Shown one piece after another: positions 804-61,329 of a DNA stretch of 64,000 nt. The stretch is from contig OX387197.1 of assembly GCA_947561715.1 (NCBI GenBank), forward strand, positions 22,594,266 to 22,658,265, written 5' to 3'. The notes under the pieces are model-generated. The model searched no databases, was not told the DNA's origin, and saw only the letters and a list, made by a program, of their open reading frames with translations. A program made the position numbers and the translations under genes. The stretch comes from Ascidia mentula. Lineage: Eukaryota > Chordata > Ascidiacea > Phlebobranchia > Ascidiidae. Each line of letters opens with the position of its first letter. Positions within the stretch are counted from its first letter, which is position 1.

Positions 804-820
804 GTGGGTTGTAAACCTGC
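804..820 (+). promoter_or_regulatory. Conserved hairpin motif, copy 1 (GTGGGTTGTAAACCTGC)
   Basis: As RNA, GUGGGUU can pair with AACCUGC through two G-U wobbles. It lies 81 bases before the ATG of the relic exon at 885, so the promoter-proximal unit has persisted beside a dead gene. Confidence 0.45.
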
Positions 821-884
821 GTATGCTTGTAAAGTGAAGCGTCAAAAGTTGGATCATTTGATGAAGATTATCACAAAGGTAAAA

Positions 885-1010
885 ATGTTTAGGATATGGA
901 GTTTAATTATTTGATTGGTTCAAGGTTAAGAGTATTACATTGAATACAATGAAGTCATGTTAAAGCTCAAAGAGGAGCAAGAAATGCTTGTGTGGAAATT
1001 AGGTGAATGC
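885..1010 (+). pseudogene. Relic CTLD exon 1 (type-1 subfamily)
   Basis: The sequence begins atgtttaggatatgg, matching the start of gene I (atgtttaaaatttgg). It continues with decayed versions of the GYEYYIEYS, AQAQSG and ARNA coding segments, but has in-frame stops and deletions. No exon 2 follows. Near-identical relics lie at 30515-30640 and 58837-58962, so the decay preceded the segmental duplication. Confidence 0.7.
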
Positions 1011-1628
1011 TCAATAACATACAATTCCTCAACTAAAAACACAGGATTGGCGTACTTTCGTAAAATAATAACGTTGTAAAATTAGTGAGAAATATTTTTG
1101 GGTTTTCCCGTCTTTCTCGAGAGACCAACAATTGCTGAAGGAGTTCCAACGCATCGACTCCAACATTAACGTGCGATGCCAGGGTACACAAAGCAAATGT
1201 TTTGATTTGTTGCAAAGCAAATATGTGGGATCAACCTAATCCTCAATATCTTGTACTGTTGGTGTGGTTGCACCTGTGAAGGATTTAAAAATGAGGCAGT
1301 TATTTGCGACTGGTCAGTCCGTTGGTGTGACTGTGTTCCTTTCGTTTCTCAGAAATTGTGTAGAGGCGTTTCATTTTGGTTCTAAATTGAGTAAATAGCA
1401 CCCATTCGTTCATCAAAAAGGTTTTTACTTTAACAGAAAATTTTTAAGTCCTGCTCAAATCGTCGCATAAATCATCTTTTATATTAAATAACTTTGTCGC
1501 TCGTGTTTCACGAATTTCGAAGTAAAATATTACTTACGTAAATTGAAAAGTGTCTGTTCCCGCGCTACACAATGTTGCATATCCACCGAATCGCTACCAC
1601 AACATTGTGGTGTTTATTTTCACACCAT

Positions 1629-1645
1629 GTGGGTTGAAAAGCTAC
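1629..1645 (+). promoter_or_regulatory. Conserved hairpin motif, copy 2 (GTGGGTTGAAAAGCTAC)
   Basis: This variant, preceded by acacca, recurs at 31252 and at 32172 upstream of gene H. The CC of the 3' arm is GC here, which weakens the stem. No lectin exon follows at this site; a Gypsy integrase fragment does. Confidence 0.35.
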
Positions 1646-1774
1646 ATGTGTTGTACAGAGATGAAAGGTTGTGTTGGAAATCGAAACACATTGTTAAAGC
1701 ATTACCGCACGGCTGTGACCAATCTCATGTTGCAAGACATACAGGTCACCATACTCTGTGATGTCGCTAAAACG

Positions 1775-2560
1775 TTCCACGGCAGCGAAAAATTTTCGAC
1801 ATTGTGCATGGCTTGTCACACCCATCCATTCGAGCCACCCGCCAGCTAGTTCCTTGCAAATTCGTGTGGCATGGGATGAAACAACAGGTTGGATTATGGG
1901 CACGCAACTACATGCAATGTTAAAAATATAAAATCCAACAACATGTACGTTCGCCGCTCGAAAACTACCCGCCCCCACGGGCTCGTTTTGCTCATGTTAA
2001 TGTGGACATAGTCGGTCCACTCCCGTCTTCACAGGGCAATACTTATTTGTTTACAATGGTCGACCGTATGACGACGTGGCCGGAAGCTGTTCCCCTTTCT
2101 GTTGCTAACACGTCAACGTGTGTCAGGGTCTTTTTTACCACTGGGTGTCGCGTTTTGGTGTACCTCTGGACATCTCCTCAGACCGTGGTCCACAATTCAC
2201 GTCTGATTTTTGGACATCTTTCAATAGGTTTTTTGGTGTCAATTTTCATCGCGCGATGGCATATCACGTCCCGTCAAATGGTCTGGTCGAACGTTTACAT
2301 CGCCACTTGAAGAGTGCCCTTATGGCTCGGCTCACCGACAGCAATTGGATGGACGCGCTTCCCTGGGCTAGCTTAGAATACGCACCGCTCCAAAAGAAGA
2401 TCTCGGGACATAGTCAGCTGAGCTCGTTTACGGTTCACCGTTGGCTGTGTCTGGCGATTTTATGGTTAAACACCCACCGAACCGTCCCTCGTCGACTTTA
2501 CTGTTGAAAGGTTCCCGCCGACACCCATGTCACGTCACTTAAATCCGAATGAAAATGTCC
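1775..2560 (+). mobile_element. Ty3/Gypsy integrase-region fragment
   Basis: Conceptual translation gives stretches typical of Gypsy integrase: RKIFDIVHGLSHPSIRATR and a WHGMK / WAR zinc-binding-like region, then VDIVGPLPSSQG, the catalytic-core signature PLDISSDRGPQFTSDFW and SNGLVERLHRHLKSAL. No LTRs, gag, protease or reverse transcriptase are seen beside it. It is an old, broken fragment with several breaks. It is absent from the paralogous block at 59.49 kb, where the whole 1547-3719 interval is missing. Confidence 0.8.
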
Positions 2561-2608
2561 CGAACTCATTGGACACAAGCTCTTATGCATTCTTGCGCAC
2601 AGACAAAC

Positions 2609-3978: not shown

Positions 3979-4987
3979 ATCATGTAATGACCAATACTAA
4001 ACTTTTTTTAATGACCATGACAAAAGTCCTTGACAAAAGTTTTACATGTGTTTATGAGAACTTACATAATGATTATTTCGTTGGTCGTATGTTTTCATTA
4101 CGTTGAATAATCTCCGCAAATAATAAATCATAAAAATTTATTTGCAAATCTATGTTGGATGCCATGGGCTTGTAATATAACGCGTTATTACATGCAATTA
4201 CGCTAAAAGGTATCTTATCCAAATATGTCTTTGTTTTTGGAACTACGTAATCCAAATAGACAACAGATGTCATCATAATCTAACGTATAGCTTAGTCGCA
4301 TATGTATATGTGTAGCTTGAAATGTTTACCGAATAATAGCCTACAACGAATAATAGCCTACAAGCCTACAACAAATAATAGCCTAGTGGTCCTTCGCTGT
4401 TAAAATATATCTAGAACCCGTGAAATTTTGTTGTAGATTGTGGTTGAATGCAATATTCGTCACCAAATGCAATTTTATCAAGCATTTTGAGTAAAACGTA
4501 AATGTAGGAAGTCATGCTGGTTAAATGCACAGTAAAGTTGATATTGGCCTGCGTTACAACATATGTTCGGCATAGCTTGTTTACGGAGGCGTCCAAGCAT
4601 TCATACCAAGGATATGAAAGCCTAGTGGATTTAACGCTTACTCTTCAGCTGCTTAGAGATGGGCTTCTGCGTATGCACTGGGAAATGTAGTCACAACATT
4701 CAAATAGGATACACACCATGTGGGTTGAAACCTACGATTACTTGACGATGTGTTCCAGTGTACTTTTTGGAATGGGAAGCTGATGTGCTCGAATGCTCAA
4801 AATCGCCAGGACCCCGAGTTGTCACCCCATATGATAAGGCGGTTGAGGCCATTTAGCGCGTGATGAAAATGTCGGCAACACGCCAAATGCGCGCAGGACT
4901 CTAAAGAGCGAAATGAAAAACGCACGTCAATACGCTTCGGCACAACAACATAAATAGTAAAAATGCCACAATGTATTTGATTGATGC
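3979..4987 (+). repeat. Shared 3'-flank/intergenic unit, copy 1
   Basis: This unit follows the last exon of a type-1 gene and ends in the next gene's upstream region. Related copies lie at 8560-9250, 31288-31860 and 59750-60740. Landmarks are the tatgttggatgccatgggct segment near 4150, a tandem of aataatagcctaca near 4330-4380, and the hairpin motif at 4720. Apart from the motif I see no gene. Confidence 0.7.
4720..4735 (+). promoter_or_regulatory. Conserved hairpin motif, copy 3 (GTGGGTTGAAACCTAC)
   Basis: The arms GTGGGT and ACCTAC pair around a TGAA loop. No CTLD exon lies within 120 bases; the expected gene seems to have been lost. The same arrangement is at 60490-60505. Confidence 0.45.
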
Positions 4988-5458: not shown

Positions 5459-6035
5459 TGCATACTGTATTCATGCACTATTTTTTTGTCGCTGACTAAC
5501 TTCGTCGCTAAAGTAAAAAGTGCTAAAAGCACGAAGGTTAACTATACCGTTTTGAGTGCAGTTCGTGTTTAATGAATTCGCAGCGTTGCCTTATTTTCAT
5601 ATATGAACCGTTTTCTGAGTACAAATGGTAAATACGCAAATATTTCGTTTAATTACATTTTCCATCTCGGGGTGTAATTTGTTAACATCGTTTGTGCGTT
5701 GTTGTAAATCACAGAATAAAAAAAGGGAAATAAAAATCAATATTTTTTTTATTCTGCGCGGTTGGATCAAATGTTTTCATGCAATTATGTAAAAGAAAAA
5801 GAAAAATCAGAGTATGGTTTTAATGCAGTAAAAGAAAATATCATTCTGCATATGTTTGTGAAGCAAGAAATTGCATCAGTACGAAAAAATATTCCTTCAG
5901 TGTTTTGCTGCACGTAGGAGACTATGTGGGTTGAAATCCTATACGTGTGGTGGTGACGTGGTGAAGAAATTGTTGGAAAGTGAAATAGAATGGTTGTGTA
6001 CTGTTGGTTCTGATATTGTTGTGTCAGTCATGACA
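5459..6035 (+). other. Upstream region of gene C
   Basis: No coding sequence is recognised. It matches 60750-61329 upstream of gene Q almost base for base, and its first 120 bases also match 31870-31990. It carries the hairpin motif at 5926, 110 bases before the chosen start codon. Confidence 0.6.
5926..5945 (+). promoter_or_regulatory. Conserved hairpin motif upstream of gene C
   Basis: It reads GTGGGTTGAAATCCTATACG, preceded by actat as at genes O and Q. It is 110 bases before ATG 6036. The 5' core is perfect; the 3' arm is partly degraded. Confidence 0.5.
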
Positions 6036-8559
6036 ATGGAAATATACATGATTGTGGTTCTAGGTGCTTGTTTAATTTGTCATGGAAAAGCCCAAACCTG
6101 GCATGAGTTTCAAGGTTACAAGTATTACATCGAATACAGTGCAGCTAGTTCTTATGCTCAAGCTCAAAGTTTATGTGCTGAAAGAAATGCTAATTTGGCA
6201 AATGTTAAAACAACTCAAGTGTTCAACTTTCTTGTCAAAAAACTGAATCTAACAGGTGAATACTGAACAAATTTAAATTTTTAAAGTTGAACTTCGGAAT
6301 ACATGTCACAGCGTTGTCGTTATACCATAAAATAAATGACCACTGTATAATGAAAATGTGTAATTGCAGTTTCAGATATTCCCTATTCCTTTTACATCGG
6401 GGCAACGAGAGTCACAGAAACAGACAACTACCGCAAGTTTCAATGGACAGATGGAACAAGTGTTGATGTAGCACAGTGGAGTACAGGGGAACCAAACAAC
6501 AATGGAGTAAATGAGGATTGTGTTATAATGGGTTGGGTTTATGAACTTCATCCAACATTTAGATGGATAGATGTTCCCTGTTCATATTTTTCAAGATACA
6601 TTTGTCAAAGAAATGCATGTAAGGAATACTGTAAATCTAGTAAATTTGTGTTTCATTTGCTAACTTCCTTGTAATCGAGTGTTTTGGTTGTTTAGAATGT
6701 TATGAAGTCTTGGTTGAACAGCCCACACAAAGTTAAGGCACATGGCGTTATAGCCTATGATTTCAGTATAAGTTGTATCTGCGTATTCCATCCAACTATC
6801 AGTTCAAGTTTCTCTTCAAAACTATAGCATTTGTTGTATCGTCACCAAGTCCAGCAACAACTGAAGACAAAAGGGAGTCTACACCTATAACCACAATACG
6901 AAACGAAAAATCTACATCTCTCCAAAAATTTCCTACGAATGAAGCAACAACTGCCCCTTCTTTTGGTTTGCATTAGCACTTTTCTATTTTGCAAATATAC
7001 AATTAAATGAAAAACCTACTGCGGATGTGAAAAACTAACATAACAAACTACTTCTTGTGGCATGCTAAAAGTATAATTCGAAAAGTTAATTTTTATCTTT
7101 CGTTGATTTTTATTCCATGAAGAAGCAACCACTAAAGAAAGTAATGAAAACTATGAATTAGATTTTCGACAAAAAGCGTTATACAGCAGCAAATAATTGA
7201 ACTATGTTCTCTGCGTTAACTAATTTCACTGGTAACAACACAAAAAACATTAACTGCATTAATTTTACCAGCAACAGCACAAAAGGCAACAACAGCTTCA
7301 ACAAGACAAAAAGTAACAGCTTCACCCACTTTACATGCAATACATACTGTAAAAAGTGTGGGAACCAACCGATTTTCGTATGGTAAGTATCGCTGTGATT
7401 CAAATTCAGCACCAACAGTTACGTAAAAATAGACGCCATACTTACATGCTTTTTCTGTTTAGAATCCCCAACCATTGAATCTATATTTGCAGCAAAAAGT
7501 GTTGAAACATTAATTAGCCCTTTTCTTGCGGGAAAGCTTACGTAATAAAAATTTCCTTTTTTGGTTAAATTAAGTTCTTTGTGAAGCCTATTTGCGCAGT
7601 GTAGTTTGATTCTTTAAAATTTGATCAAATGATTTGTCAAGCAAGAGTATTAGTAAAACACATATTTAGCTTAAAATTAAACAAATATGAAAACAATTAA
7701 TGACATAATTAATCTAAATCTGAAGGCTAGTATGCTTCTCATGCATCGTCAGTTCTAATTCGGAATAAGTTGCAGCAAAGCGCGCGTAGAGATAGGCAGG
7801 TAACTGAGCAAAGAAAAAACAACAATACAACTGAAACACATCACGTGACAGTAGCTAACTTAGAGGGGTACGGCAGTGACGTCATCATTTCACATGTCAA
7901 ATGATGTTTTTCAGTTGTGTTGTTGATTTTGTCTGCTCAGTTGCCTGCATTCATATTCACATTAATTAAATAATCAACGGAGTTTTCTCATCTAAACTAG
8001 TAATTATTTTTTTTTCTACAGCCGAACGAATTGTACTGATATCTGCCGTTGTGATATTGTTTCTGACAAACATGATGTGTTGTGTTATCATCTGGAAACA
8101 ACGTAGAGACAAACGGTAATCTTAACATCTGTCGCACAGACACAATTTGAGTCAACTGTAATTTATTCAGCAGAGAACCAACTACAAACACACAAAACGA
8201 AACCACTCAACAACAAACGTCTCAAGCTAACTATGAAAATTTTAATCCAGCTCACCCTCAACACCAACGGGCGTACGAGGAAATATCAGGTACGATTATG
8301 GGTACATTAACACTTTACGAGGTACTGTACATGTTAGGATCAATCAATGCAAACTGATGAACATAAAGTATCAGGAATACCACTGAATGCATGAAATGAC
8401 ATTACGCATTTTATGCTACATATTTCAGCTTGCATGAGAAATAACTTCCTTTTTTTAGTTACTGCTGGTGCTTCCCTGTCGATAAAACCATCTTACATAA
8501 ACGTGAAAGGAAACGCATCTGGTACAAATGAAGTTGCTCACACTGAGATTTCTGTGTAA
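6036..8559 (+). CDS. Gene C: type-1 CTLD receptor with phosphotyrosine-motif tail (one splice donor damaged)
   Basis: Exons: 6036-6255 (signal peptide MEIYMIVVLGACLICHGKA and CTLD first half), 6376-6618 (second half, GEPNNNGVNEDCVIMGW, WIDVPC, YICQ), 6828-6965 and 7272-7382 (Thr-rich stalk), 7463-7531, 8022-8115 (membrane segment, VLISAVVILFLTNMMCCVII), 8171-8289 (NYENF..AYEEIS) and 8459-8559 (SYINVKGN, stop). Phases are consistent and give about 364 residues. The ATG was chosen because gene Q starts at the same place. After the 69-base exon 5 the donor reads GAAAGC, whereas gene Q has GTAAGC; read-through would stop at 7543-7545 before the membrane exon and give a soluble protein. Likely a surface lectin-like receptor or a secreted derivative. 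Confidence 0.8.
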
Positions 8560-9250
8560 ATCATGTAATGACCTTTACCAAAGTCCTTTATACGTGCTTT
8601 GATGTGAGCTTGCATAATGACCATTTCGTTGGTGGTATGTTTCGTTACGTTGTCTAATCTCCAAAATTAATGACTTATAAACATTTATTTGCAAATTTAT
8701 GTTGGATGCCATGGGCTTGTAACACAACGCGTTATGACATGCAAATTTGCTAAAAGGTATCTTATCCAAATATGTCTTTGTTTTTGGAACTACGTAATTC
8801 AAACAGACAACAGATGTCATCATAATGTAATTTATAGCTTTGTCGCATATGTATATGTGTACATTAGCTTGACATGTTTACCGAATAATAGCCTACACAG
8901 TAGTGGTCCTTCGTTGTTAAAACTTATCTGGAACCTGTCGGTGACATTGTGGTGTTACATGTGGTTGAATGCAATATTTGTAACCAAATACAATTTTATC
9001 AAATATTTTGAGTAAAACGTTAATGCAACAAGTCATGCTGCTTAAATGCACAGTAAAGCTGACATTTCCCGCGTTACAACATGTTCGGCATAGCATTTCC
9101 AAGGAGAAATCCAAGCATTCATATCAAGGACATGAAAGCTTAGTGGAGTTAACTCTTACAATGTAATTGCTTTGGGCGTCTGCATATGTACAGCGAAGTG
9201 TTTTCACAACATTCAAATAGGATACACACTACGTGGGCTAAAACCTACGA
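8560..9250 (+). repeat. Shared 3'-flank/intergenic unit, copy 2
   Basis: It is a diverged copy of 3979-4735, with the same landmarks and an upstream motif at its right end. No gene is visible. Confidence 0.65.
9233..9248 (+). promoter_or_regulatory. Conserved hairpin motif, copy upstream of relic exon/gene D
   Basis: It reads GTGGGCTAAAACCTAC; a 5 bp stem GTGGG/CCTAC remains. A decayed CTLD exon 1 follows about 140 bases later. Confidence 0.4.
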
Positions 9251-9374: not shown

Positions 9375-9535
9375 TGAGCTGAAACTTGGCACCAGTTTGA
9401 AGGTTACAGGTATTAAATCGATTGCAGTCAAGTCAGCTCTAATGCCCAAGTTGAAAATGGATGCGGATAAATGCCACCTTTGAAAACGTTTACATAGATC
9501 AAGTGTTCAAATTCTGCACACAAATTTAATGAACG
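9375..9535 (+). pseudogene. Relic CTLD exon 1 upstream of gene D
   Basis: DNA similarity to gcaccagtttgaaggttac, aatgcc and caagtgttcaa segments of intact exon 1 is clear, but stops and indels disrupt the reading frame. No CTLD exon 2 follows before gene D's downstream exons. Confidence 0.65.
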
Positions 9536-15372: not shown

Positions 15373-15919
15373 CCTTTCTTTAGATATTACTTACACTATA
15401 GGTTCTGCCATCGAGTATCATCATATGTACCAAGGTGCACCATGCCTTCAAGGCTTGCCGAGACTCCAACAACAGAATGGCTAGGAAGGTTTGTGGGCGC
15501 AGTGTGACGCAACGAGGAGGAAGTGGGCGTTCCCAGCATGAAGCAGTTGCCTGCAAAAACAGCACCAAGAGATATACAATATAAAAGATGCATTCTTCCA
15601 TACACGAATGAGTTTTCTTACTCTATCAGATAGGTGGAGGCGGACACAATGTAGTAAAAACGAACACAGCAACCTAAATTTAGATTTTCAGTAAAGCATC
15701 TCTTTGTGGTTCATCTTACATCTTGTCTCGCAGCAACAACAATGCGTAAGTTGTCACGTCATAAAACTCAAATAATCATCAATTGTGTGGGTAGCTTTCC
15801 TTCTGCATGTAGTAACTTTCGTTAAAGAAACGCCCAGGCTGGTATAGGCTGGGTTGAGCTTAATTGGACAAAGAGAACAGAATAATTTCACGGTTCGGAC
15901 TGACAGCTAGTCTGGCTCA
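15373..15919 (+). promoter_or_regulatory. Upstream region shared by genes E and F
   Basis: It matches 24335-24865 over its whole length with small indels and runs up to the start codon. It must contain any proximal promoter of these two secreted-type genes. It has gtgtgggtagctttcc near 15784 in place of the type-1 hairpin motif; the same position in F reads gtgtgggttttcattc. I see no separate gene. Confidence 0.55.
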
Positions 15920-16510
15920 ATGGATATTTTTTTAATTTTTTGTTCGATTCTTCTTTCAGTCAGAGCTCAAACATGGCACCAGTTTGAAGGTTACGAGTAT
16001 TACATCGAATACAGTGCAGTCAGTTCTTACGCTCAAGCTCAAAGTGGATGTGCTGCAAGAAATGCCAATGTGGCAAATGTTAAAACAACTCAAGTGTTCA
16101 ACTTTCTTGTTGGAAATATCAGTGTAGCAGGTTGAGTCTGAATGTAAAGCAATTTTTTCGAAAATAACTCAGTATTCAAAACTATTGCTATGTGCATAGG
16201 TCTATGTTGCAATAATTGTTATCAAAAACAAATGATTTTGAAACATTTAAATTGGCAAAATTTTCATTCCTGTTATGCAGACATTCCCTACTCGTTTTAC
16301 ATCGGTGCTACGAGAGTCAAAGGAACCAACAAGTTTCAGTGGACAGATGGAACGAGTGTTGATGTAGCACAGTGGGGTACAGGGGAACCAAACAACGCAG
16401 GAGGAAATGACGGTTGCGTGATAATGGGTTGGATTTATTCACTTTATCCAACATTCAGATGGAGAAATGTTCCCTGTTCATACCAATCAAGATATATTTG
16501 TCAAAGAAAC

Positions 16511-16809: not shown

Positions 16810-19800
16810 ATGGAAAAAGTTGCGAAGCTCATTCAAGAACAGTTACAACAGCAGCAAAAACGTCACGATGAACAGCAAGAAGAGCAGCAAAAACGTCACG
16901 ATGAACAGCAAGAAGAGCAGCAAAGGCGTCACGATGAACAGCGAGAAGAACAACGAAGGTGTTACGAAGAACAACGTAAGTGTCACGAAGAACAAATGAA
17001 GTTGATTCTTGCCCTAGTTGAAAAGGCTGGTTCAAGTGGAAACGCTGCACCTTCTGTTGCTACGCCAAGCTTTTCGTCATTCGACGCAACATCGGAGTTG
17101 TGGGACGACTATTGGTCGAGGTTTGCTACGTTTATACGTGCACATGCTGTACCAGAAACGAGGGTGGCTCAGGTTTTTTTGACCAACCAAACTACCACCA
17201 CGTACAAGCTTTTATCAAATCTGGCGGGACAAAGCTCACCTGCAAAGACCGTCAACGATCTTTCTGTTAAAGACATCGAAGCCTTTATGAAAGAACAGTT
17301 CGATCCAAAGCGATTTGTTATTCGGGAACGTTTCAAGTTTTGGAGCAACATGCAACGCAATCCAGGGGAAACGGTGCAAGAATTGGCTGCACGCATTCGC
17401 CAGGACGCAGGCACGTGTGATTTTCCCTCGATCGAAAACCCTCTGGACGAAGCGCTGCGCACAAGGTTTATTTGCTCCATAGCCAATGAGGCAGTGCTGA
17501 AGGCAATTTTCAAAATCAACGCTGATGAGCTGACATTTACGCGTGCTATTGAAGTTGCCATGCAAACTGAAGACGCTGCCAAGGTTGCAAAGGAAACCGT
17601 TTACGGAACACGGGGATCGGTGCATAAAGTTCGGGATGCAAAGAAAACTGCTGTTACGTCACCAGGTACGGTTGTTCAAGGTCAGTTCAAGAAGAAGATT
17701 TCTTGCTACCGCTGCGGAAAGGCAGATCATATTGCACCCAATTGCCGATTTAAAACAGCAACATACCGTTTTTGCAAACGTTTGGGACATTTGGAGGCAG
17801 CTTGCAGAAAGAAGAGGGCATCTAACGACAATGTCAATTTGTTGTTTTCGATCAAGCCGCAAGTCATTTCACGTACGAAGTTGGGGGTAACCGTTACCAT
17901 TAACGGCAAAGCATGTCTATTGGAGATGGACACCGCAACAAACGGAAACTTTATTTCTGTCGAGACATGGAGAAAAGTTGGCAAACCGTTTTTGAAGAAG
18001 TCAAATCGGCGTTTCAACTCAGCGACAGAACATGTTGTTCCGATTGTGGGGGCGTTTGAGGCAGAAGTTCAACATGGACCAAACATAAACAAGGTGGAAT
18101 TTTTCGTCACCCAAATGCCGCATTTAAATCTGCTTGGACGATGCGCTATCCAATCCCTGCACATTTCGTTGGACAAGCTACTTCACAGTCCCGACGAGCA
18201 GTTGCACGCATTATCTGACGATCGACGTCCGGACACTCATTTACAAGAAGCTTGCACACAACTTTGTGGACAATACCCAGATCTTTTCAAGACCGAATTG
18301 GGATGTTTAAAGGATTTTGAACTAGAGGTAAAGTTTACGAAGGACGTGAAACCCATATTCTGCAAGCCGAGACCTGTTCCATTCGCGTTACAAGACGATG
18401 TCAACCAAGCATATGACGCTGGCATAGCAAGAGGTATTTGGACTCCTGTGAAATTTAACAAGTGGGGAACACCAGTGGTTCCAATACGAAAGTCACCGCT
18501 TCCAGGACAAACCAAAGCCAAGATACGGGTTTGCGGAGATTACTCTGTAACCGTTAACCCGCAGTTATCTACACACCGTCATCCACTTCCACTTCCTGAA
18601 GACTTAATGCGCAAGTTGCGAGGTGGATACAGCTTTACAAAAATTGATTTGGCTGACGCCTATAACCAAATCCGATTGGGGCCAGAGAGTCGCAAGAGAC
18701 TGGCAATCAGTACGCACAGAGGTGTTCTACTGCAAAACGTTTTACCATTTGGTATAACCTCCGCTCCAGGCTATTTCCAATCGATAATGGACGACATTAC
18801 AAAAGATTTGCAAGGTGTAACCGTCTATCTGGATGATCTTTTGGTTAGCGGATCAACGGCCGAAGAACACATTCACAATCTTCGCCAACTTCTTCAAAGG
18901 CTAAACGACAAGGGTTTACGCTGTCGTATAGAGAAATGCAAATTTGCATTACCACAAGTGGAATACTTGGGGCACATTCTTTCCAAAGAAGGCATTTCCA
19001 AAGGTTCAAAATTGGATGCGGTTGTCAACATGTTACCACCGGAAGATGTGCCAAGTCTACGTTCATTTCTTGGTTCAGTGCAGTTCTACAGCAAGTTCCT
19101 GCCATCGCAATTCGCAAATGTTGCGGAACCTTTGTATCGACTTACCAGGTCAAATATTGCGTGGAAATGGGGCAGGAACGAGAATGCTGCATTTTGTAAA
19201 TTGAAGGAATGGTTGTCAGCGGACACAGTTCTGACTCATTTCGACCCTTCATTGCCTGTTGGAATTTCCTGCGATGCAGCAAACGTTGGAATTGGAGCAG
19301 TTCTGTTTCACCGCTATCCAGATGGAAGCGAGAGGCCAATTGCAAACGTGTCAAAATCATTGACCAAAAGCCAGCGCAACTACAGCCAAATTCAGAAAGA
19401 GGCTCTTGCAATAATTTTCGCGCTGAAGAAGTTTTACCAGTATCTCTTTGGCAGGAAATTTGTTTTGGTGACCGACCATAAGCCACTGATAGCTTTGTTT
19501 GGTCCCACTAAAGCGACACCTGCTTTAGCAGCTAACCGCCTAGCAAGGTGGGCACTTTTTGTGAGTCAATTTCAATACGAGATTGAATACAGGAAGACAT
19601 CGGAACATCAGAATGCCGATGCACTTAGTCGTTTACCGGTTGGGGAAGATGCAGACTTTGACAGAGAGGAAAGTGCACAGGACACCGACATAGTTTGTGC
19701 AATCACCAGTCTGAGTTTACAAGTGCAACCCACCGATTCGGCATCGCTCCGAAAGGAAAGTGGAAAAGATACGGTCTTATCCAAAGTCATGCGCTTTACA

Positions 19801-24334: not shown

Positions 24335-24865
24335 CTACCTTCCTACAGACATTACTTACAATAGGTTCCGCCTGCGAGTATCATCATATCGACCAAGCTA
24401 CATCAGACTTTCATGGCTTGATGAGTTTCCAACAACAGAATGGGTCGGAAGTTTTGTGGGCGCAGTGTGATGGAATTAGGAGGTAGTGTGCGTTTCCTGC
24501 ATGGAGCTACCGCCTGCAAAAACAGCACCAAAGATATACAATATATAATACACATTCTCCCATACTCGAATGAGATTTCTTTCTATCTCAAAGAGGTGAA
24601 AACGAACACAGAAATGTAAATTTAGATATTCAGTAACGCATGCCATTGTGGTTCATCATACATCTTGTCTCGTAGCGACAACACTGAAGAAGTTGTTACA
24701 AAAACATGTTGAACCATTATCAACTGTGTGGGTTTTCATTCTGCACGTGGTAACTCGGAAGCGGAAGAAACACTCAGGCTTGTACAGCGGGATTAGAGTT
24801 GATTGGACAAAAAAAAAAAAAAACAGAATAATTTAACGGTTCGGACTGACAGCTGGTCTGGTTTA
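24335..24865 (+). promoter_or_regulatory. Upstream region of gene F, shared with gene E
   Basis: It is the diverged copy of 15373-15919. The duplication boundary falls in the same place relative to both start codons. Confidence 0.55.
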
Positions 24866-27829: not shown

Positions 27830-29195
27830 TCAAATTTATGTGTTGTGTATTTCGTGTATTTTAACGTTACACGTGGTTCTGCAAATTGTATTACTGTGGT
27901 TAGTTTATTTAGATTGTTGTTAACATAAGCGGAAGAACCAATCTCGTTTGGCGTCAACTCACCTAACTACGCAATTGAGTAACGTAAGTAACGTGTTTAC
28001 ACTTGTGTATTTCGTGCATTTTAACGTCATTACTGTGATTCGTATGTGTAGGTTCTTTCGTTAACATAACTGGCGCGATTTCTCTTGCCGCATACTTACT
28101 GTCACACGTTGGAATAATTACATACAATGTAGCTTTACGATATTTGCGTTTTATTAAATACTTATACCCTTACATGATTTCAAAGGTCAATGACATCCCA
28201 ATTGCCGATTAATGCCCGCAGTTGCTCTTAAGTTAAAATTAGGTTAATCGTTTTGCCCCGGTGAGAATAAATTTGAGTTTATTAGATTTTCCTTCTATAT
28301 GGACGATCCTTGCCAAACAACGTCTTGCCAGCAAGTCGTATATCATGCGCAAAGAGGGTATGTAGGTGGCAAAATCATAAGTAGACGTTTACGAGTCAGC
28401 TTTGCTGGCAACCTATGACGAGGAAGTAAATAAGTAGCAGGTATAGTGACGTATGTGAGAAAACAAATTGTCAGTAATGCATCAAAGTTTCAAAATCTTG
28501 CCAAGTAATGACAAACTTCACTAAATTGCAAACGTTTGAAACGGTTGGACGATGTGATGCAAACTCTTCTGTCCAGTAAACGATTGTTCCCTCCGTTAAA
28601 ACTCAATACTGGCATAAGTGCCAAGGTTACTTACGAGCATGCCTTCCCAAGTTTAAGTTGGTGTGTAGGAAATATTAAAACCGTGTTCAACATTTCACCG
28701 TTCAAAATTGTGGCTATATGTAAATTGTTGTATCTTAATCTCTAACCTTTGACCATAGTAATTCGTGCCACAAAAGAAAGCAGCCCATACTGCGTTACAG
28801 TAATTGGTACCACAACTTATTGATGAAAAGAATGTAGCCAAAAATGATGATTGGAATTATGATTTATGATGATGGCATCAATGTCTAATAAAAGAAACTG
28901 CCATATTTTGGCCGCTTTATATACATACAGCAGTTGTTCCTCACGATTGCATTCAATTTGTTTTTAAGTTAATGAAATGTTTTTTGTATCACTGAGACGT
29001 CAACGTGTCTCTGTTCATATTAATTTGTTTTTAATACGTTTATTTTCAGATATGCTGATGATGTTGTTATATTTTCTTGTAAAATAATAATAATAGAGCG
29101 TATTACTTCAAATCCTTGTGGGTGGCATGAGTAAACCTTCATGCAGTCATTAGTTGCACATCACTGATATTTCCCATTCTGCAGCAGTTTTAGTG
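27830..29195. other. Intergenic, no gene recognised
   Basis: A phrase cgtgtattttaacgt.. occurs twice (27855 and 28013) as a local diverged duplication. A gtgggtggcatgagtaaacct segment at 29118 precedes gene G by about 80 bases and may be a diverged form of the upstream motif. Otherwise nothing is supported. Confidence 0.4.
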
Positions 29196-30433: not shown

Positions 30434-30450
30434 GTGGGTTGTAAACCTGT
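30434..30450 (+). promoter_or_regulatory. Conserved hairpin motif, copy in gamma block
   Basis: It reads GTGGGTTGTAAACCTGT, 81 bases before the relic ATG at 30515. Confidence 0.4.
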
Positions 30451-31189: not shown

Positions 31190-31990
31190 ACCCAATGCTG
31201 CATATCCACCGAACAGCTATCACAATATTGTGGTGTTTATTTTAACACCATGTGGGTTGAAAAGCTGCTTGTGTTGTACAGAGATTAGCTTGGCATGTTT
31301 ACCGAATAATAGTGGTCCTTTGTTAAAACTTCTCTGGAACCTGTCGGTGACATTTTGGTGTTGTATGTGGTTGAATGCATTATTCTGCACCAAATACAAT
31401 TGTATCAAATATTTTAATTCAAACGTAAACGTAGGAAGTCATGTTGGTTAGATGTACAGTAAAGCTGATATTGGCCTTCGTTACAACATATGTTCGGCGT
31501 AGCATTGTACGGAGGCGTCTAAGCATTCATATTGAGGATATGAAAGCCTAGTGGATTTAAAACTTACTCTTTAGCTGCTTAGAGATGGGTTTCTGCGTAT
31601 GCACTGGGAAATTTAGTCACAACATTCAAATAGGATACAAACGATGTGGGTTGAGACCAACTGTTACTTGACGAGGTGTTCCAGTGTACTTTTAGAAAGG
31701 GAAGCTGATGTCTTCCCATATGAAAAGGCGGTTGAGATCATTTGGTGCGTGATGAAAATGTCGGTAACACGCCATATGCGCGCATGACTCTAAAGAGCGA
31801 AAAGAAAAACGCACGTTAATACGCTTCGGCACAACTACTGAAATAGTGAATGAAGATGCTACAATATTTATTTTTTAATGCATACTTTATTCATGCACAA
31901 TTTCTTTGTCGCTGACTATCTTCGTCGCTAAAGCAAAAAGAGCTAAAAGCGTGAATGTTAACTTTTTCGTTTTGAGTGCAGTTTATGTTT
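31190..31990 (+). repeat. Rearranged copy of the lectin intergenic unit
   Basis: 31190-31285 matches 1550-1660, including the motif variant at 31252. From 31288 it jumps to the 4308-4980 unit, and 31870-31990 matches 5465-5580. The junction shows an internal deletion relative to the alpha block. Hairpin motifs are at 31252 and 31646; no coding exon follows either. Confidence 0.65.
31646..31661 (+). promoter_or_regulatory. Conserved hairpin motif, decayed copy
   Basis: It reads GTGGGTTGAGACCAAC; the outer stem is broken. No CTLD exon lies within the usual distance. Confidence 0.3.
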
Positions 31991-32171: not shown

Positions 32172-32188
32172 GTGGGTTGAAAAGCTAC
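32172..32188 (+). promoter_or_regulatory. Conserved upstream motif of gene H
   Basis: It reads GTGGGTTGAAAAGCTAC, 117 bases before ATG 32289. The 5' half is perfect; the 3' arm pairs poorly. Confidence 0.4.
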
Positions 32189-33341: not shown

Positions 33342-33358
33342 GTGGGTTGAAAACCTAC
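33342..33358 (+). promoter_or_regulatory. Conserved hairpin motif upstream of gene I
   Basis: It reads GTGGGTTGAAAACCTAC: a 7 bp stem with one G-U pair and a GAA loop, 107 bases before ATG 33449. This is the best-formed copy. Confidence 0.55.
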
Positions 33359-38335: not shown

Positions 38336-39857
38336 GTTGACACAGAAGCCAAAAAAATGCTGCTAAAAGTGCATTGAAAAAGTATCTATTTTCTCTGCGT
38401 GTTGCTACATATACAAAACACACAAATCTTAACTTTTAAGCGTGAATATTTAGACATTTTACGCATGTATATGTAATACCTCGCAGTCTGTGCGCTATAT
38501 TTTTTCCACATATCCTGCATTGCAACACAGAATAATTATAGCTTTAAAACGCGTGCGATTATCGATGAACCGTGACACTGTGATTACGTAACGCTTTAAA
38601 ACATGACTTTGAGGCAATACGATGTTCATGACTAACACATTCTCCTTAAACTCTCATACCAAATCGATTTCTTGGTCTAACATTGACGTTCAGGTTTTAA
38701 ATGTCAACATTGCAGCTCACGAAATAATGTTTATGCTCTTCGAATTCATGTAAAACATAATTATGCAAAAGTGCGTCCTATTAAAAGGGAAGTCTTTGTA
38801 TGATTTCTGTAAATAAATCACCTTTTAGACATTATAGGTGTTTCTCCCTTGTATGACTTCCTCTTGGAATTCGATGTACATACAGTCTTTACATTTGTTT
38901 ACCACAGGTAACTTGCAAGTGGGTATATGTATACGTGTGCTTAAGGACACCTCTTATAAAATCCTGAATTGTGTTATAAACGCTGTTGCTTTTTCACAGA
39001 AAGACAATGGATGTATTGGCGATCACTCCTATAATTAAACTACTACTGCAGTTTTGTATTTTATTATTTAATGTCCAAATTATTTTACGTTCAGTCTTGG
39101 AGATGAGCATCAACACCGAAAGCCAAAAGACTGCAAACAGAGATATATGTGCCACATAAAATTTATACATAGAACATTACTAGAGCAAGCTTGTTCAATT
39201 GTTTGTGACACAACTTATGCAAGCCTACGTACGTTTCACCCACACAATACGTCAGGGAAACCTCTGTGACGTTTTGTGTTACATGATGCTGTTTCCTGGT
39301 TTCTCATACATGTATGATCAGTAAAATTTTGTAGAGTAAGAGTCAACTACTAAGGTATACCTGTAGGAAAAAGGAAAACCAGTACTACGGTTCGCAAACT
39401 GTGAGTATTATGTAGGTTTTTCTTACGATTCAAAATAAGAGTTGTTTTGTAAGACCTGCGGTTGCTCTCAATGTTTATATCAAGGTAACAAATAAACAGT
39501 AAAAATGTATTAATTTAATTATGTCAAACGTTTTGCGACTTGTACGTACGCGTTTCTTAATTGCAAGAAAATGAAATGGGTGACAGGCGACCAGAAACCA
39601 TAGAAAAAGGTATTTCGACAATTTGAGACAATTTTGATCGTTTAGATTTGTGTTTGATTTCTGTCTCAAAACATGTTGCTGGGGTTAAACCATCACAATT
39701 ACTGAATTTCGATTTGCTTTCACAATGTTTGTCCATATGTAGCACAAACACTAGTTTGAAAACATGCGCGTGTTTGCACAGTGATGGAGGAAAGTTTTGA
39801 CAAGGGAATCACTTTCTTGTGCAATGTTTGTTATTCGTTATTCTTTTGTAGGTCATT
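38336..39857. other. Intergenic between divergent genes J and K
   Basis: No exon or repeat family is recognised. About 107 bases before gene K, tagtttgaaaacatgcgcg (39752) looks like a decayed hairpin motif. Confidence 0.4.
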
Positions 39858-47732: not shown

Positions 47733-47749
47733 GTGGGTTGGAATCCTAC
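47733..47749 (+). promoter_or_regulatory. Conserved hairpin motif upstream of gene M
   Basis: It reads GTGGGTTGGAATCCTAC, 100 bases before ATG 47833; stem GTGGG/CCTAC with a larger loop. Confidence 0.5.
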
Positions 47750-47832: not shown

Positions 47833-49990
47833 ATGAAAGTTTGGAAGATTTTAACTGTGGGTGTCTGTTTGGTTTTACAAGGCAAAGCACAAACATGGCA
47901 CCAGTTTCAAGGTCACGAGTATTACATTGAATACAGTAATGTCAGTTCTTATGCTCAAGCTCAAAGTGGATGTGCTGCAAGGAATGCTAATGTGGCAAAT
48001 GTTAAAACAACAGATGTATTTCACTTTCTTATCAGCCAGATAAATATAACAGGTAAACACTACATGCAATATATAGTCATTTTCTGTCAAATTACTTATT
48101 GACGCAATTGTTAACTAAAGTTTCATACCAAATATTATTCTTTAAAATATAATGCTTTGAACTGATTGTTCCCATTTCACAAAATCTAGTATAAATTTCC
48201 AAGTTACAGATGAAAAAGATTGTTTACATTTCAATTTTTTTCACATTATGTTTGTACTCGAATTGATAGTGTTAAAACGACTACATTGGAGTATTCTTCC
48301 AGATTCTCCCTATTCGTTTTATATCGGTGGTGCGAGAGTCATGGGAACCAACAAGTTTCAGTGGATAGATGGAACAAGTGTTGATGTAGCACAGTGGGGT
48401 GGATCGGAGCCAAACAACCGCGGAGGAAATGAGGATTGTGTGATAATGGGTTGGGTTTATGAACTTGATTCAACATTCGGATGGAGAGATGTTCCCTGCT
48501 CATACTGGTCAAGATATATTTGTCGAAAAAACTATGAAGGTAACACAATTATTGTCTTAAATTTTAACAAGAAATATAACATATACATGCCGTAAACGGT
48601 AAAAAATAAGCGTAGTTTTTTTCTCAGGAAGCACATCATATCAGACTACGATTAGTACAAGTGCTCTACAAACCACGCGAAAAACAACTTCATCTACACT
48701 GCATCCAACAACACACAAATTAACAACTGGATTTACGTCTCGCTTGTCAAGTTACGAGAAAACAACTGAATCCACATCAATTCCAACAACACATATTTCG
48801 GAGACAATAAACCAGCGATTATCTTATGGTTGGTATCCTTTTTTCGTAAATTACAGTAAACTATACATCAAAACTTGTTGTCGGCATTACTATCTGGCTT
48901 ATATTTTACGAAACAAGTGTATAATTATGAATGTTTTGTAAAATAACTACTTTTGCGTAGTGACTAAGGCAAAGTTAAATTTGAATATCCTTTATCTCCT
49001 ACCAAACGTATGAAAAGAACGTAAATAGAGTGATATTTCATCCTATTCATGTTCACAAAAACTACAACAATTTTCCCTTCAGAATCAACCAGCGAACGAA
49101 CAATTTCACCCTTAAAAACCGAAGCAATATCGAGAGCCAGTTTTCTTGATAGTAAGTTTTGAGACTTGTGATCCTGTCTCGCCAAAGTATTTTAGGGATA
49201 TACAAACACTTTTACTCAACTGATAAAAGCAAGCAATGTGTTTAACGAATACTGCCCTTCTGGCAAATTATAGGGCAGTATTCAGCAATAAAATATGCCT
49301 GGCAGCATCAGTAACAATTTATTTAAATGTGTTTAACTACAACCATATCTAGACAAAAACCAAGAAACAAAATTAAGTATTTTCCTTAGTTGAACGCATC
49401 ATCTTTATGTCTGCCGTTGCGACTTTGCTTTTGACAAACATTGCGTGTTGTATTGTGATATGGAGGCTGCGAAAAGGAAAAAGGTAGATTAATATAAGCC
49501 TTACCATCTCAAAGAAACTTAAAAGGTAATATTTTTGGAAGAGTACAACACCTAATACCGCAAGAAGAACCACATCGTCAACAAATAACACCAGGAAACT
49601 ACGAAAATTTCGATCTGTTGCAACAACAACAACAACACCGATATGAAGATATAATATTAGGTGAAGTGCAGAATAAATAACACAACAGAAATTTTCCCCC
49701 CAATTTTTTTTCAGTCGTTCCCATGCGGATACAAGTCCAAAGTACAAATCGTAAAACGAGTTATTATGAAGTGCTTTGGCTAAAACTGATATTCGGAAAC
49801 CTTGGCATATGTTTATGCAATCATACAATTATAGAATAATTTGTTTTAAATAACATTTAGTTGGTTTATAATTGAAACAATTTTGCCAGGTATTCGTGGT
49901 ACGTCAGCTAACCAGCGTCCATCTTACGTGAACGTGAAACTGAACACACCAAGGAGTAATGGAGCTGTATGTGCTGACTTTGCTGTCTAA
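47833..49990 (+). CDS. Gene M: complete type-1 CTLD receptor
   Basis: Exons: 47833-48052 (MKVWKILTVGVCLVLQGKAQ, CTLD first half), 48303-48539 (second half; GGSEPNNRGGNEDCVIMGW, WRDVPC, YICR), 48628-48828 (Thr-rich stalk ending NQRLSYG), 49083-49151 (ESTSERTISPLKTEAIS), 49390-49483 (IERIIFMSAVATLLLTNIAC, membrane), 49542-49660 (GNYENFDLLQQQQQHRYEDI) and 49890-49990 (PSYVNVKLNTPR.., stop). Total 1041 bases, 346 residues. EPN is intact. The tail keeps YENF, YEDI and YVNV but lacks the terminal YxxF. A CAA run in the tail exon makes a polyglutamine stretch. The upstream GTG in frame was not used as start. Confidence 0.87.
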
Positions 49991-51756: not shown

Positions 51757-51772
51757 GTGGGTTGAAGCCTAC
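51757..51772 (+). promoter_or_regulatory. Conserved hairpin motif upstream of gene O
   Basis: It reads GTGGGTTGAAGCCTAC, 97 bases before ATG 51854. The A-to-G change in the 3' arm turns a U-A pair into U-G, so the stem is kept. Confidence 0.5.
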
Positions 51773-51853
51773 GTTTACTTGACGAAACGTTGTTGTGGAT
51801 TGTGACAAATCTTTGTATCGTGCACTGTTTTCTTGATCAATATATCATGTGCG

Positions 51854-53582
51854 ATGGAGAGGTTTATTTATATACGCTTGATCGCAGGTTTAGCTTTGCT
51901 CGGTAAAGCCCAAACCTGGCACCAGTTTGGAGGTTACGAGTATTACATCGAAAACAGTGCAGTCCGTTCTTATACTCAAGCTCAAAGTGGATGTGCTGCA
52001 AGAAATGCTAATGTGGCAAATGTTAAAACAACTCAAGTGTTCAATTTTCTTGTCGGAAAGATAAACGCAACAGAAGAAAGATGGTCAACAATTGGTAAAA
52101 CTTTTTAAATGTTAAAACTCAATTCGGTTTCGTGAACAAGAAAATTTGTTTCGGTTTTTTGAATTAGAAAGTGCTTAGGGGTGTTTTAGTTGTACGCCGC
52201 TTATAATCCTTTCGCTTTTGAAATTGTTTGTTGGCATGTTCCTAATGTTTCAGACCAATATGTATACTCGTTTTACATCGGTGCTGCGAGAGTCACAGAC
52301 GCCAAAAGGTTTCAGTGGACAGATGGAACAAGTGTTGATGTTGCACAGTGGAATAATGGGGAACCAAACAACTCAGGAGGAAATGAGAATTGTGTGATAA
52401 TGGGTTGGATTTATGAACTTGATTCAACATTCAGATGGAGAGATGTTCCCTGTTCAAAAATATCAAAATATTTTTGTCAAAGAATCATTGAATGTAAATA
52501 TTCGTTAGTCGTATCTAGTGGTACTTAACCGAAAATTTTGTGCACTGTATTTAGTGTGATTATACACACAACATGTTGGACTAAAACCTTGCACATATAT
52601 CATACAATAATTTCAAGTGTTTTATCGCAGCGCAACTGTTAACAAACAAAATTAATTCCATGGAAACCACACAAAAATTAACAACTGTAGTACAATTGCC
52701 TGTAACAACACAAAAAATAACAACTACATCAAGTTTACCTCCCACAATATATATAATGGAAACGACAATGAACGACCATTTTTCGTATGGTATGTATCGT
52801 GGTGTAACACAAACGATATCTAAAAAACTAGTTCCATAACATTTTTTGTGTAGAATCAACAATCGAAGAAAGTGTTTCAATGACAATTTCAGAACCATCC
52901 AGTTGCAGTTGTTTTCGGGGTAAGATATGTACGCACCAAAGTAACGATATAATGTTCGTTGCAAACTTATTAAACGCTCTGCATTTACACGATGGGAAAG
53001 GAAATGTGCAGTAAGTTTGCAGTAAACTAATTTTTATTAAAAGTAGGACATATTAAAAAAGGCATAAAAAGTTGTAACAATAACTACGATTTGTTGCTTC
53101 AGGCGATCACATTGTCTTAATACTTGCTGTTGTGTTCTTGTTCATAACAAACATTGTGTGCTGTGTTGTGATCTGGAAACAGAGAAACGCTAAACGGTAA
53201 CCTCAAATCTACACCACAAATCGCAATTTGATTAAAACTGCAATTTAATCAGGAGTGAACCGAAACAAAACGTTACAATTCTGCCGAAAGCATCTGCCGC
53301 TACGTTAATTCGTCACAACTACAAAATGAACATGCATACAAGAAAATAGCAGGTACTATTTATGACTTGTTGAAATTATGACACTCTCTTTAGGTTTGAG
53401 TGGAACAATGCAATTCGTGTAAATTAATTATTTGCGGATTTCCTCTGCAAACCGTGATTGGTACATAAAATATCCCATATTTAGGTGATACTGGTGCCTC
53501 TGTGTCGAAGAATCCATTTTACGTAAACATAAAAGGCACCGATTCCATAGAAATTGATGCTTTCACAGAGCTTTCGGTTTAA
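51854..53582 (+). CDS. Gene O: type-1 CTLD receptor with frameshifted tail
   Basis: Exons: 51854-52094 (MERFIYIRLIAGLALLGKAQ, CTLD first half, longer end ATEERWSTIG), 52254-52493 (second half; NNGEPNNSGGNENC, WRDVPC, YFCQ), 52631-52789 (Thr-rich stalk ending NDHFSYG), 52854-52919 (ESTIEESVSMTISEPSSCSC), 53103-53196 (GDHIVLILAVVFLFITNIVC, membrane), 53253-53352 (tail) and 53485-53582 (FYVNIKGT..FTELSV, stop). The tail exon is 100 bases where paralogues have 116-119. In the expected frame it stops at a TAG just before the donor; the frame carrying RYVNS..HAYKKI is shifted. The receptor head and membrane segment are sound, so the product would be a surface protein with a non-signalling tail. Confidence 0.78.
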
Positions 53583-58176: not shown

Positions 58177-59488
58177 GTTCCATCCATGTTTCGTGTATAG
58201 TGTGTGCAATCTTGCATTTTGCAACTAAAACTTTTATTCATTAATCCAACCTGTATAGTCTGCATAAAGTATAATATTTATATTTGAAAGCCGCAATTAA
58301 ATTTCGCTGTTGTGTGACTTCTGTTTCGAGCTGTCATGCGTGTTGATTTTTTAAACTGTGCCATTTGCAAAAGGCCTTATTTTTGCATAATTTGTGCTAC
58401 GTAACAAAGCGATTGTGTTTTGCATAAAACGGTGGTTAAATACACTTTATACACGTTTCATGTTTATATTCTCAGCAAGCATGTGGAAATTTGACATAAA
58501 TGATTTGGTGTATCTTGCATTAAAAGGGTTGCCAAATATACTTGTCAGTCGAGAGACTCATCTATACATACATACAACAGTGCACAGGAAAAGAAACGAT
58601 ATTGTTCAAACGTTACCTAACAGTGACAGCATTACGATCGCAAAGCTTTATACCCATCACATATGTTGTATTTTTGCCTTTGACGTAAGTTAGCGCAGCT
58701 TAGTTTCTGTTTTTGTCAATGTGCTTAAAAATATTACGTACATGATCATGAATAATGTGAGTTGTAAACCTGTGTATGTTTGTAAAGTGAAGTGTCAAAA
58801 TTTGGATCATTTGTTGAAGATTATCACAAAGGTAAAATGTTTAGGATATGGAGTTTGAATATTCGATTGGTTCAAGGTTAAGAGTATTACATTGAATACA
58901 ATGAAGTCATGTTAAAGCTCAAAGTGGGGCAAGAAATGCTTGTGTGGAAATTAGGTGAATGCTCAATAACATACAATTCCTCAACTAAAAACACGGGATT
59001 GGCGTACTTTCGTAAAATAATAACGTTGGAAAATTAGTGAGAAATATTTTCGGGTTTTCCCTTCTTTCTCGAGAGACCAGCAATTGCTGAAGGATTTGTT
59101 GTTTTCCAACGCATCGACTCCAACATTAACGTGCGATGCCAGGGTACACAAAGCAAATGTTTTGATTTCTTGCAAAGCAAATATTTGGGATCAACCTAAT
59201 CCTCAATATCTTGTACTGATGGTGTGGTTGATTTTAAAATGAGGCAGTTATTTGCGACTGGTCAGTCCGTTGGTGTGACTGTGTTCCTTTCGTTCCTCAG
59301 AAATCTTTTCATTTTGGTTCCAAATTGAGTAAATAGTACGCATTCGTTCATCAAAAAGGTTTTTACTTTAACAGAAAATTTTTAAGTCCTGCTCAAATCG
59401 TCGCATAAATCATCTTTTATATTAAATAACTTTGTCGTTCGTGTTTCACGAATTTCGAAGTAAAATATTACTCACGTAAATTGAAACG
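58177..59488 (+). repeat. Segmental duplication, copy beta
   Basis: It matches 238-1546 with small indels, including the relic CTLD exon at 58837-58962. At 59488 it joins directly to sequence matching 3720 onward; the 2.17 kb corresponding to 1547-3719 is missing. Confidence 0.8.
58837..58962 (+). pseudogene. Relic CTLD exon 1 (beta copy)
   Basis: Same decayed exon as 885-1010, preceded at 58760 by a weakened motif (gtgagttgtaaacctgtg). Confidence 0.6.
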
Positions 59489-59651
59489 TGACGATTTTGG
59501 ATAGATCGAGATTACATCGCTCTGTACAAGTTTGGAATGCAAAGTAAATTCACAAACGACAATTTTAAGAATTCCACTGAATGCAACAAACGAATTTTCT
59601 CATTCTTATGCTGCATATTTCAGTTTGCATGACTAATAATCACCTTTTCAG

Positions 59652-59749
59652 GTGCTGCTGGTACTTCCGTGCTGATACGACCATCTCACGTTAACGTAAA
59701 AGGAAACACATCCAATGCACATGAAGCTTACACTGAGTTTTCTCTCTAA
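59652..59749 (+). pseudogene. Orphan last exon of a type-1 receptor
   Basis: The acceptor ccttttcag is followed by GAAGTSVLIRPSHVNVKGN..AYTEFSL and a stop. The upstream exons are removed by the deletion at 59488. The conserved SYVNV tyrosine is histidine, consistent with loss of constraint. Confidence 0.7.
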
Positions 59750-60489
59750 ATCATGTAATGACCAATACTAAATTTTTTTAATAACCATGACAAAAGTCCT
59801 TGACAAAACTTTTACATGTGTTTATGAGAACTTACATAATGATTATTTCGTTGGTCGTATGTTTTCATTACGTTGAATAATCTCCCCAAATAATAACTTG
59901 TAAAAATTTATTTGCAAATCTATGTTGGATGCCATTGGCTTGTAATATAACGCGTTATTACATGCAATTACGCTAAAAGGTATCTTATCCAAATATGTCT
60001 TTGTTTTTGGAACTACGTAATCCAAATAGACAACAGATGTCATCATAATCTAACGTATAGCTTAGTCGCATATGTATATGTTTAGCTTGAAATGTTTACC
60101 GAATAATAGCCTACAACGAATAATAGCCTACAAGCCTACAACAAATAATAGCCTATTGGTCCTTCGTTGTTAAAATATATCTAGAACCCGTGAAATTTTG
60201 TTGTAGATTGTGGTTGAATGCAATATTCGTCACCAAATGCAATTTTATCAAGCATTTTGAGTAAAACGTAAATGTAGGAAGTCATGATGGTTAAATGCAC
60301 AGTAAAGCTGATATTGGCCTGCGTTACTACATATGTTCGGCATAGCTTGTTTACGGAGGCGTCCAAGCATTCATACCAAGGATATGAAAGCCTAGTGGAT
60401 TTAACACTTACTCTTCAGCTGCTTAGAGATGGGCTTCTGCGTATGCACTGGGAAATGTAGTCACAACATTCAAATAGGATACACACCAT

Positions 60490-60505
60490 GTGGGTTGAAA
60501 CCTAC
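60490..60505 (+). promoter_or_regulatory. Conserved hairpin motif, beta copy
   Basis: GTGGGTTGAAACCTAC, identical to 4720-4735. No CTLD exon follows within the usual distance. Confidence 0.45.
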
Positions 60506-60740
60506 GATTACTTGACGATGTGTTCCAGTGTACTTTTAGAAAGGGAAGCTGATGTGCTCGAATGCTCAAAATCGCCAGGACCCCGAGTTGTCACCCCATA
60601 TGATAAGGCGGTTGAGATCATTTACCGCGTGATAAAAATGTCGGCAACACGCCATATGCGCGCAGGACTGTAAAGAGCGAAATGAAAAACGCACGTCAAT
60701 ACGCTTCGGCACCACAACATAAATAGTAAAAATGCCACAA

Positions 60741-61329
60741 TGTATTTGTTTGATGCATACTGTATTCATGCACTATTTTTTTGTCGCTGACTATCTTCGT
60801 CGCTAAAGCAAAAAGTGCTAAAAGCACGAATGTTAACTATACCGTTTTGAGTGCAGTTCATGTTTAATGAATTCGCAGCGTTGCCTTATTTTCATATATG
60901 AACCGTTTTCTGAGTACAAATGGTAAATACGCAAATATTTCGTTTAATTACATTTTCCATCTCGGGGTGTAATTTGTTAACATCGTTTGTGCGTTGTTGT
61001 AAATCACAGAATAAAAAAAGGGAAATAAAAATCAATATTTTTTTTTATTCTGCGCTGTTGGATCAAATGTTTTGATGCAATTATGTAAAAGCAAAGAAAA
61101 AGCAGAGTATGGTTTTATTGCAGTAAAAGAAAATATCATTCTGCATATGTTTGTGAAGCAAGAAATTGCATCAGTACGAAAAAATATTCCTTCAGTGTTT
61201 TGTTACACGTAGGAGACTATGTGGGTTGAAATCCTATACGTGTGGTGGTGACGTGGTGAAGGAATTGTTGGAAATGAAATAGAATGGTTCTGTACTGTTG
61301 GTTCTGATATTGTTGTGCCAGTCATTACG
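60741..61329 (+). other. Upstream region of gene Q
   Basis: It parallels 5459-6035 and reads through the position where the LTR fragment 4988-5458 sits in the alpha block. Confidence 0.6.
61221..61240 (+). promoter_or_regulatory. Conserved hairpin motif upstream of gene Q
   Basis: GTGGGTTGAAATCCTATACG, identical to the gene C copy, 109 bases before ATG 61330. Confidence 0.5.

Follow-up and report, generated by a model that had tools for sequence, protein, structure and literature searches.

A strand-fixed TGTGGGT box in a C-type-lectin array of Ascidia mentula, a likely promoter-type element

What is the short motif that stands upstream of the start codon of so many C-type-lectin genes in a tandem array of the ascidian Ascidia mentula, and by what is it read? 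The stretch analysed here (C1:22594266-22658265, 64,000 nucleotides in full, hereafter the window) belongs to a genome of 196 Mb in 79 contigs and lies inside a C-type-lectin array of about 0.55 Mb, about 0.3% of the genome. A search with lectin exon 1 returned at least 150 scored matches, concentrated in the array at C1:22.41-22.95 Mb; the others fall mostly at 23-27.6 Mb, with some on contigs C71 and C73. Lectin_C was matched by five of the seven window open reading frames (ORFs) that were scanned. An initial annotation had described the motif as a hairpin that could be a core-promoter or 5' untranslated region (UTR) element shared by the family, or else a recombination landmark. What has stood of the first proposal is a shared promoter-type element, by virtue of its strand, position, conservation and array restriction; a general core-promoter element and a hairpin have not. 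Judging from the sequence, we lean towards an array-specific proximal promoter element of the tandem lectin family, namely a linear, one-way DNA box that would have been inherited by duplication and kept by selection. It is likely a promoter-type box.

A one-way box upstream of array lectins

The box stands within a narrow range of positions and on one strand before array lectins, is confined to the array as far as lectins were sampled, and is conserved above its flanks. Its core is TGTGGGT, which in the main sub-lineage is lengthened to TGTGGGTTGRAA. Of the 84 upstream regions that we gathered, 80 lie in the array and some stand before broken exons; single linkage of blastn matches joined the 84 into 23 promoter classes. 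The hexamer GTGGGT occurs in sense orientation between -230 and -50 from the exon-1 anchor in 35 genes, which represent 11 of the 23 classes, and in antisense orientation over the same interval in none of the 84 upstreams. Over the longer interval from -470 to 0 of the array genes, 37 of 42 sense occurrences sit between -180 and -118, and in all 35 genes the distance from GTGGGT to the ATG is 67-138 bases. The full core is the commonest 7-mer over the 23 class representatives (8 against 0.28 expected; the maximum reached by any 7-mer in 200 shuffles was 7).

Related lectin genes carry CTGGGTT, CTGGTTT or CTAGTTT at the same place instead of GTGGGTT (L065, L085, L062 and window positions 39751-39767), and four of six minus-strand genes from one class without GTGGGT have ATGTG immediately followed by TTGAAA there, as if GG had been lost from the box. 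On a poorly resolved exon-1 tree the box label is clustered (15 changes vs 26 when shuffled). The array genes resemble one another in exon 1, yet their promoters form classes with no blastn link between them; it looks as if homogenisation had acted on the exons or turnover had been faster in the promoters.

The restriction to the array was examined in 60 further lectin upstreams (-230 to -40), mostly from other clusters, which hold no sense GTGGGT and three antisense; the other clusters were rejected as box carriers on this count, although L110, L120 and L122 have a sense GTGGGT just beyond the region, at -238 to -243. The comparison as tested, 35/80 array genes against 0/64 outside lectins, gives P 2e-11 with relatedness ignored. 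Since L126 and L135 are among the sixty and lie inside the array bounds, the fair comparison is 35/82 array genes against 0/62 outside, in a sample that leaves out ten further outside exon-1 matches.

Genome-wide searches point the same way for close matches. The motif at up to one mismatch is found at four places, three of them in the window, and at up to two mismatches at 47 places, 18 of them in the array. A lectin exon lies within 1.5 kb of 16 of these 18, the other two being the relics at 804 and 1629 described below, and of none of the 12 that were checked among the 29 outside; at this stringency the motif is therefore not equally frequent away from lectin genes. At up to three mismatches the count (593) does not exceed that of the reversed control (613), which shows the motif to be no general genomic element, and a general core-promoter element was rejected because the loose matches are at genome background. 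For a degenerate 19-place pattern, 10 of the 11 exact places are in the array; at up to one mismatch it has 49 places (control 21), 17 of them in the array. A putative upstream partner box, TACGTA, was also rejected: it lies close to the box, at varying distance, in the first members of 4 among 11 box classes, and the composite is found genome-wide 28 times against 27 in the control.

Conservation was measured in two sets of promoters. The first consists of 12 members that represent the largest promoter class; they were picked by promoter homology without regard to the box, and four of them have none. Here identity is 0.746 in the 12-base box window, the top upstream window (0.753) is shifted from it by two bases within the same stretch, and the upstream mean is 0.42 (standard deviation 0.17). 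In the second, 13 representatives mostly selected for the motif, the box reaches 0.83 against a mean of 0.40, close to the level of the coding exon (0.73-0.89). These profiles bear out the earlier remark that the sequence around the motif is far less conserved. The two halves of the motif are not kept alike: identity in left arm, loop and right arm is 0.77, 0.78 and 0.57 in the 12 promoters and 0.92, 0.78 and 0.44 in the 13. Among 11 distinct 17-mers there are no changes over the seven left-arm columns and seven over the seven right-arm columns, and among six distinct 16-mers one and four, respectively; these counts leave out one other copy and the four variants of CTGG/CTAG type, whose left arm does differ. 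An element that is linear and one-way, and that has been retained as its flanks and its own second half drifted, is most readily understood as a proximal-promoter DNA box.

On this explanation the functional part would be the linear DNA box TGTGGGT or TGTGGGTTGRAA, 67-138 bases before the ATG, which may have been duplicated along with the genes and kept while the surrounding promoter diverged. A sequence-specific protein would recognise it as DNA a short way upstream of where transcription starts, and in this way it could drive or coordinate expression of the array.

Several points weigh against this explanation. In the set chosen by homology the conservation of the box is only about two standard deviations over the mean, and the right arm also exceeds the upstream mean (0.57 vs 0.42). 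The word-count test is not significant at 6 bases, because AT-rich words equal its counts. GTGGGT is missing from 47 of the 82 sampled array genes, and the promoter classes are not independent lineages, so that the enrichment is partly shared descent. Ascidian outrons are long, so the box could be transcribed. Finally, the nearest literature site for a factor is that of Gcm, a protein that acts in fly hemocytes and whose site consensus is given as ATG(A/C)GGG(T/C) (PMC4701085). ATGTGGGT agrees with it at seven of eight positions, including 2, 3, 6 and 7, which that source calls indispensable, but differs at position 4, which is T, and with this near match Gcm was rejected as the binding factor. 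A search of the genome for the GCM domain (PF03615) gave no match, as it gave none in any control genome either, and the Ciona passages of two papers on glia hold nothing on an ascidian gcm (PMC11193209, PMC6123671). Literature on TGTGGGT or ATGTGGGT binding, on tunicate lectin promoters and on lectin-family expansion has nothing on the box in titles and abstract openings among the matches listed. In the part of a Ciona promoter survey available to us the YR initiator is the only element reported (PMC3333190).

Copies and neighbours in the window

The 17-mer at up to three mismatches has 10 matches in the window, all on the plus strand, against a shuffle mean of 0.17, and the shorter and more diverged forms listed here are on the plus strand too. 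Six lectin genes had been credited with the motif at 97-117 bases from the ATG, and all six are confirmed. The box at 5926..5942 precedes exon 1 at 6087-6260 (ATG 104 bases on), with a T-T mismatch in the stem that its arms would form; that at 32172..32188 precedes exon 1 at 32346-32504 (ATG 117 bases on), with a G-G mismatch; and that at 33342..33358 precedes exon 1 at 33494-33667 (ATG 107 bases on), with a perfect stem of seven pairs. The remaining three are at 47733..47749 (exon 1 at 47884-48057, ATG 100 bases on), at 51757..51772 in a 16-base form (exon 1 at 51905-52072, ATG 97 bases on) and at 61221..61237 (exon 1 at 61381-61554, ATG 109 bases on). Short boxes stand before three more genes: at 15787..15792 in a TGTGGGT context (exon 1 at 15962, ATG 133 bases on), at 24728..24733 (exon 1 at 24911, ATG 138 bases on) and at 29118..29123, before a diverged lectin gene (exon 1 at 29253, ATG 78 bases on).

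Further copies accompany remnants of genes. The copy at 804..820 belongs to a relic exon 1 whose coding remnant, about 117 bases downstream, contains a stop, and that at 30434..30450 to a relic exon 1 in a duplicate of the same unit; a diverged box at 9233..9248 (GTGGGC, outside the 35 counted) precedes the broken lectin exon 9378-9467. Truncated promoter relics hold copies at 1629..1645, where homology to the promoter at 32172 ends 34 bases past the motif, at 31252..31268, where homology ends 19 bases past it, and, in the 16-base form, at 4720..4735 and 31646..31661; the 16-base copy at 60490..60505 lies in a duplicate of the 4720 unit. The initial annotation had named relic or lost copies at 804, 4720, 9233, 30434, 31646 and 60490, all of which exist, but its list was incomplete, lacking the relics at 1629 and 31252 and the GTGGGT boxes at 15787, 24728 and 29118.

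Other features share the window. On the minus strand, opposite to its neighbours, a lectin exon 1 at 38123-38290 has no box. An unbroken ORF of 1393 amino acids at 16810-20991, just after lectin exon 2 at 16280-16507, belongs to a Ty3/Gypsy-type long terminal repeat (LTR) retrotransposon: reverse transcriptase, RNase H and integrase were matched, and the protease fell below the cut-off. Some 360 bases beyond the truncated promoter at 1629, at 2002-2507, overlapping short ORFs have translations that resemble by eye an integrase fragment of another retroelement; Pfam gave no family for 2002-2310. A 24-base tandem repeat of about 22 registers occupies 40845-41634, close to a lectin gene.

Alternative readings of the motif

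The box might be transcribed and act as a linear motif in single-stranded outron RNA, read for instance by a protein that influences spliced-leader (SL) trans-splicing or leader stability. Exact copies of a 16-base sequence, which we take to be the spliced leader of Ciona type, number 1091 and 1066 in the genome (control 0), many spaced 720 bases apart, and GT directly follows in the four of four copies that were read. The strict strand bias of GTGGGT speaks for this reading. By a loose rule applied without a control, 34 of 72 array genes have a pyrimidine-rich AG within the last 25 bases before the ATG, where an ascidian that uses SLs would be expected to have trans-splice or 5' UTR acceptors. 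In Ciona, as described in the portion of the source at hand, trans-splicing is believed to affect about half of the genes, and the outrons, with a median of 458 bases, are long and G+U-rich near start sites (PMC11155486); it is this combination of trans-splicing and long outrons that would allow the box to act as RNA. Against it, no clear step in G+T content is seen at the box apart from the letters of the box, and orthodox promoter boxes can be strand-fixed too. We regard it as unlikely, although it is one of the two main rivals of the promoter reading.

The box could also, as the other main rival has it, have survived from recent duplication and gene conversion without any function. The close copies are in one array, many promoter classes contain recent duplicates, and the relics retain the box as well. 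Yet in the same promoters the flanks are down to about 40% identity, with the box at 75-83%, and the right arm of the very same motif drifts more than the left. Duplication without function does not predict this difference between box and flanks; we give it a small probability.

For a recombination landmark, with breakpoints of the duplication unit clustering just after the motif, there is the homology of the relics at 1629, 31252, 4720, 31646 and 60490 to intact promoters, which ends 19-34 bases past the motif. Three of these relics seem to descend from a single ancestral unit, which leaves about three independent breakpoints; these events are too few, and duplicate blocks elsewhere start and end at many other points. 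More than half of the sampled array genes, moreover, lack the box. The suggestion in the initial annotation is thinly supported and very improbable.

There remains the functional RNA hairpin, or DNA cruciform, that was first proposed. The claim that the arms pair as RNA holds perfectly at 33342 (7/7 pairs) and 51757 (6/6), but 5926, 32172, 47733 and 61221 each have an arm mismatch (6/7); substitutions that keep pairing through G-U do exist, in the gene labelled O and in the copy at 804, but right arms of the TTC, GCTAC and CAAC types break it. We aligned 21 copies in two ways, omitting the core of 22917109 from both and the copy at 30434 from the second. The seven-pair stem pairs 83.7% of cells against 83.1% when shuffled, and the other alignment is similar; the covariation score in the 21 copies was matched by 217 of 500 shuffles, with one cell changed on both sides, and RNAalifold returned no consensus pairs. 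In both alignments the stem pairs more cells than versions of it slid by 1-3 columns, which is to be expected of a structure derived from these very sequences. Swapping the arms tells the same: the native arms of the 17 GTGG copies fold no better (P 0.70 for the 17-mer, 0.86 for 39 bases), and P 0.03 for the 17-mer over all 21 copies (0.36 with flanks, 39 bases) is read as the effect of the four CTGG/CTAG variants, where both halves differ by descent. Single copies do fold (12 copies, z-scores from +0.35 to -3.98, seven between -1.88 and -2.45), a result to be expected when one conserved GTGGG faces a CCTAC that is partly kept. The right arm's excess over the upstream mean in the homology-chosen promoters would suit a hairpin, but the left arm is the better kept, and Rfam has no match in the window at gathering scores. 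Arm substitutions do not preserve pairing, as the failure of these tests shows, and pairing lends the motif no support: the hairpin is incidental, a by-product of a one-sided conserved motif, and as a functional structure the least credible of the readings considered.

Known systems and the meaning of the box

The spaced halves GTGGG-7-CCTAC have the size of a tRNA T-arm, whose consensus, and that of the RNA polymerase III B box, we take to be GGTTCGANNCC. Six of the 32 outside places of the 19-place pattern at up to one mismatch lie at C69:8.50-8.54 Mb, and the two that were fetched are the T-arm end of a tRNA gene. This locus (L170, L171) is a cluster of repeated units with tRNA genes, and one of these genes mimics the motif with its T-arm end; some are read by Rfam alone and span 119 bases, perhaps with introns. 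The lectin box differs from the B box in that 17 of 17 distinct GTGGG cores, the CTGG/CTAG variants left out, have another base where a tRNA has C at position 56. ARAGORN found no tRNA in the window, nor did Rfam at eight box loci with E up to 10, and the T-arm or B box was rejected.

A likeness in arrangement is offered by the clustered protocadherins, a system of promoter choice in which one or a few promoters are used per cell. Their promoters carry an element termed CSE (CGCT box) about 200 bp before the start codon, for which CTCF binding is reported, and some frog isoforms have a different 13-bp motif instead, according to the portion of the source consulted (PMC4978886). In both cases a single tandem family of surface proteins has a short element that recurs in many of its promoters; the distance from the start codon is broadly comparable (about 200 bp for the CSE vs 67-138 bases for the lectin box), and some members lack the element or carry another motif. 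Many array promoters have the box (35/82) and the sampled outside relatives do not (0/62). The two differ in sequence, and CTCF binding is a reported feature of the CSE. By analogy, the box might be the shared switch of a promoter-choice system, in which each immune cell would express one or a few array lectins through a TGTGGGT-binding factor, as with the CSE; we consider this a long shot. If it were true, the box-bearing and box-less classes would be two expression programmes.

The locus illustrates how a tempting hairpin in duplicated DNA can be the accident of a one-sided conserved motif. A single short box distinguishes lectins of the array from those sampled in other parts of the genome, and by it the array can be sorted into promoter classes. 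As a proximal promoter element it would offer a concrete, testable way into the regulation of a large array of lectins that probably serve innate immunity, in an invertebrate closely related to the vertebrates.

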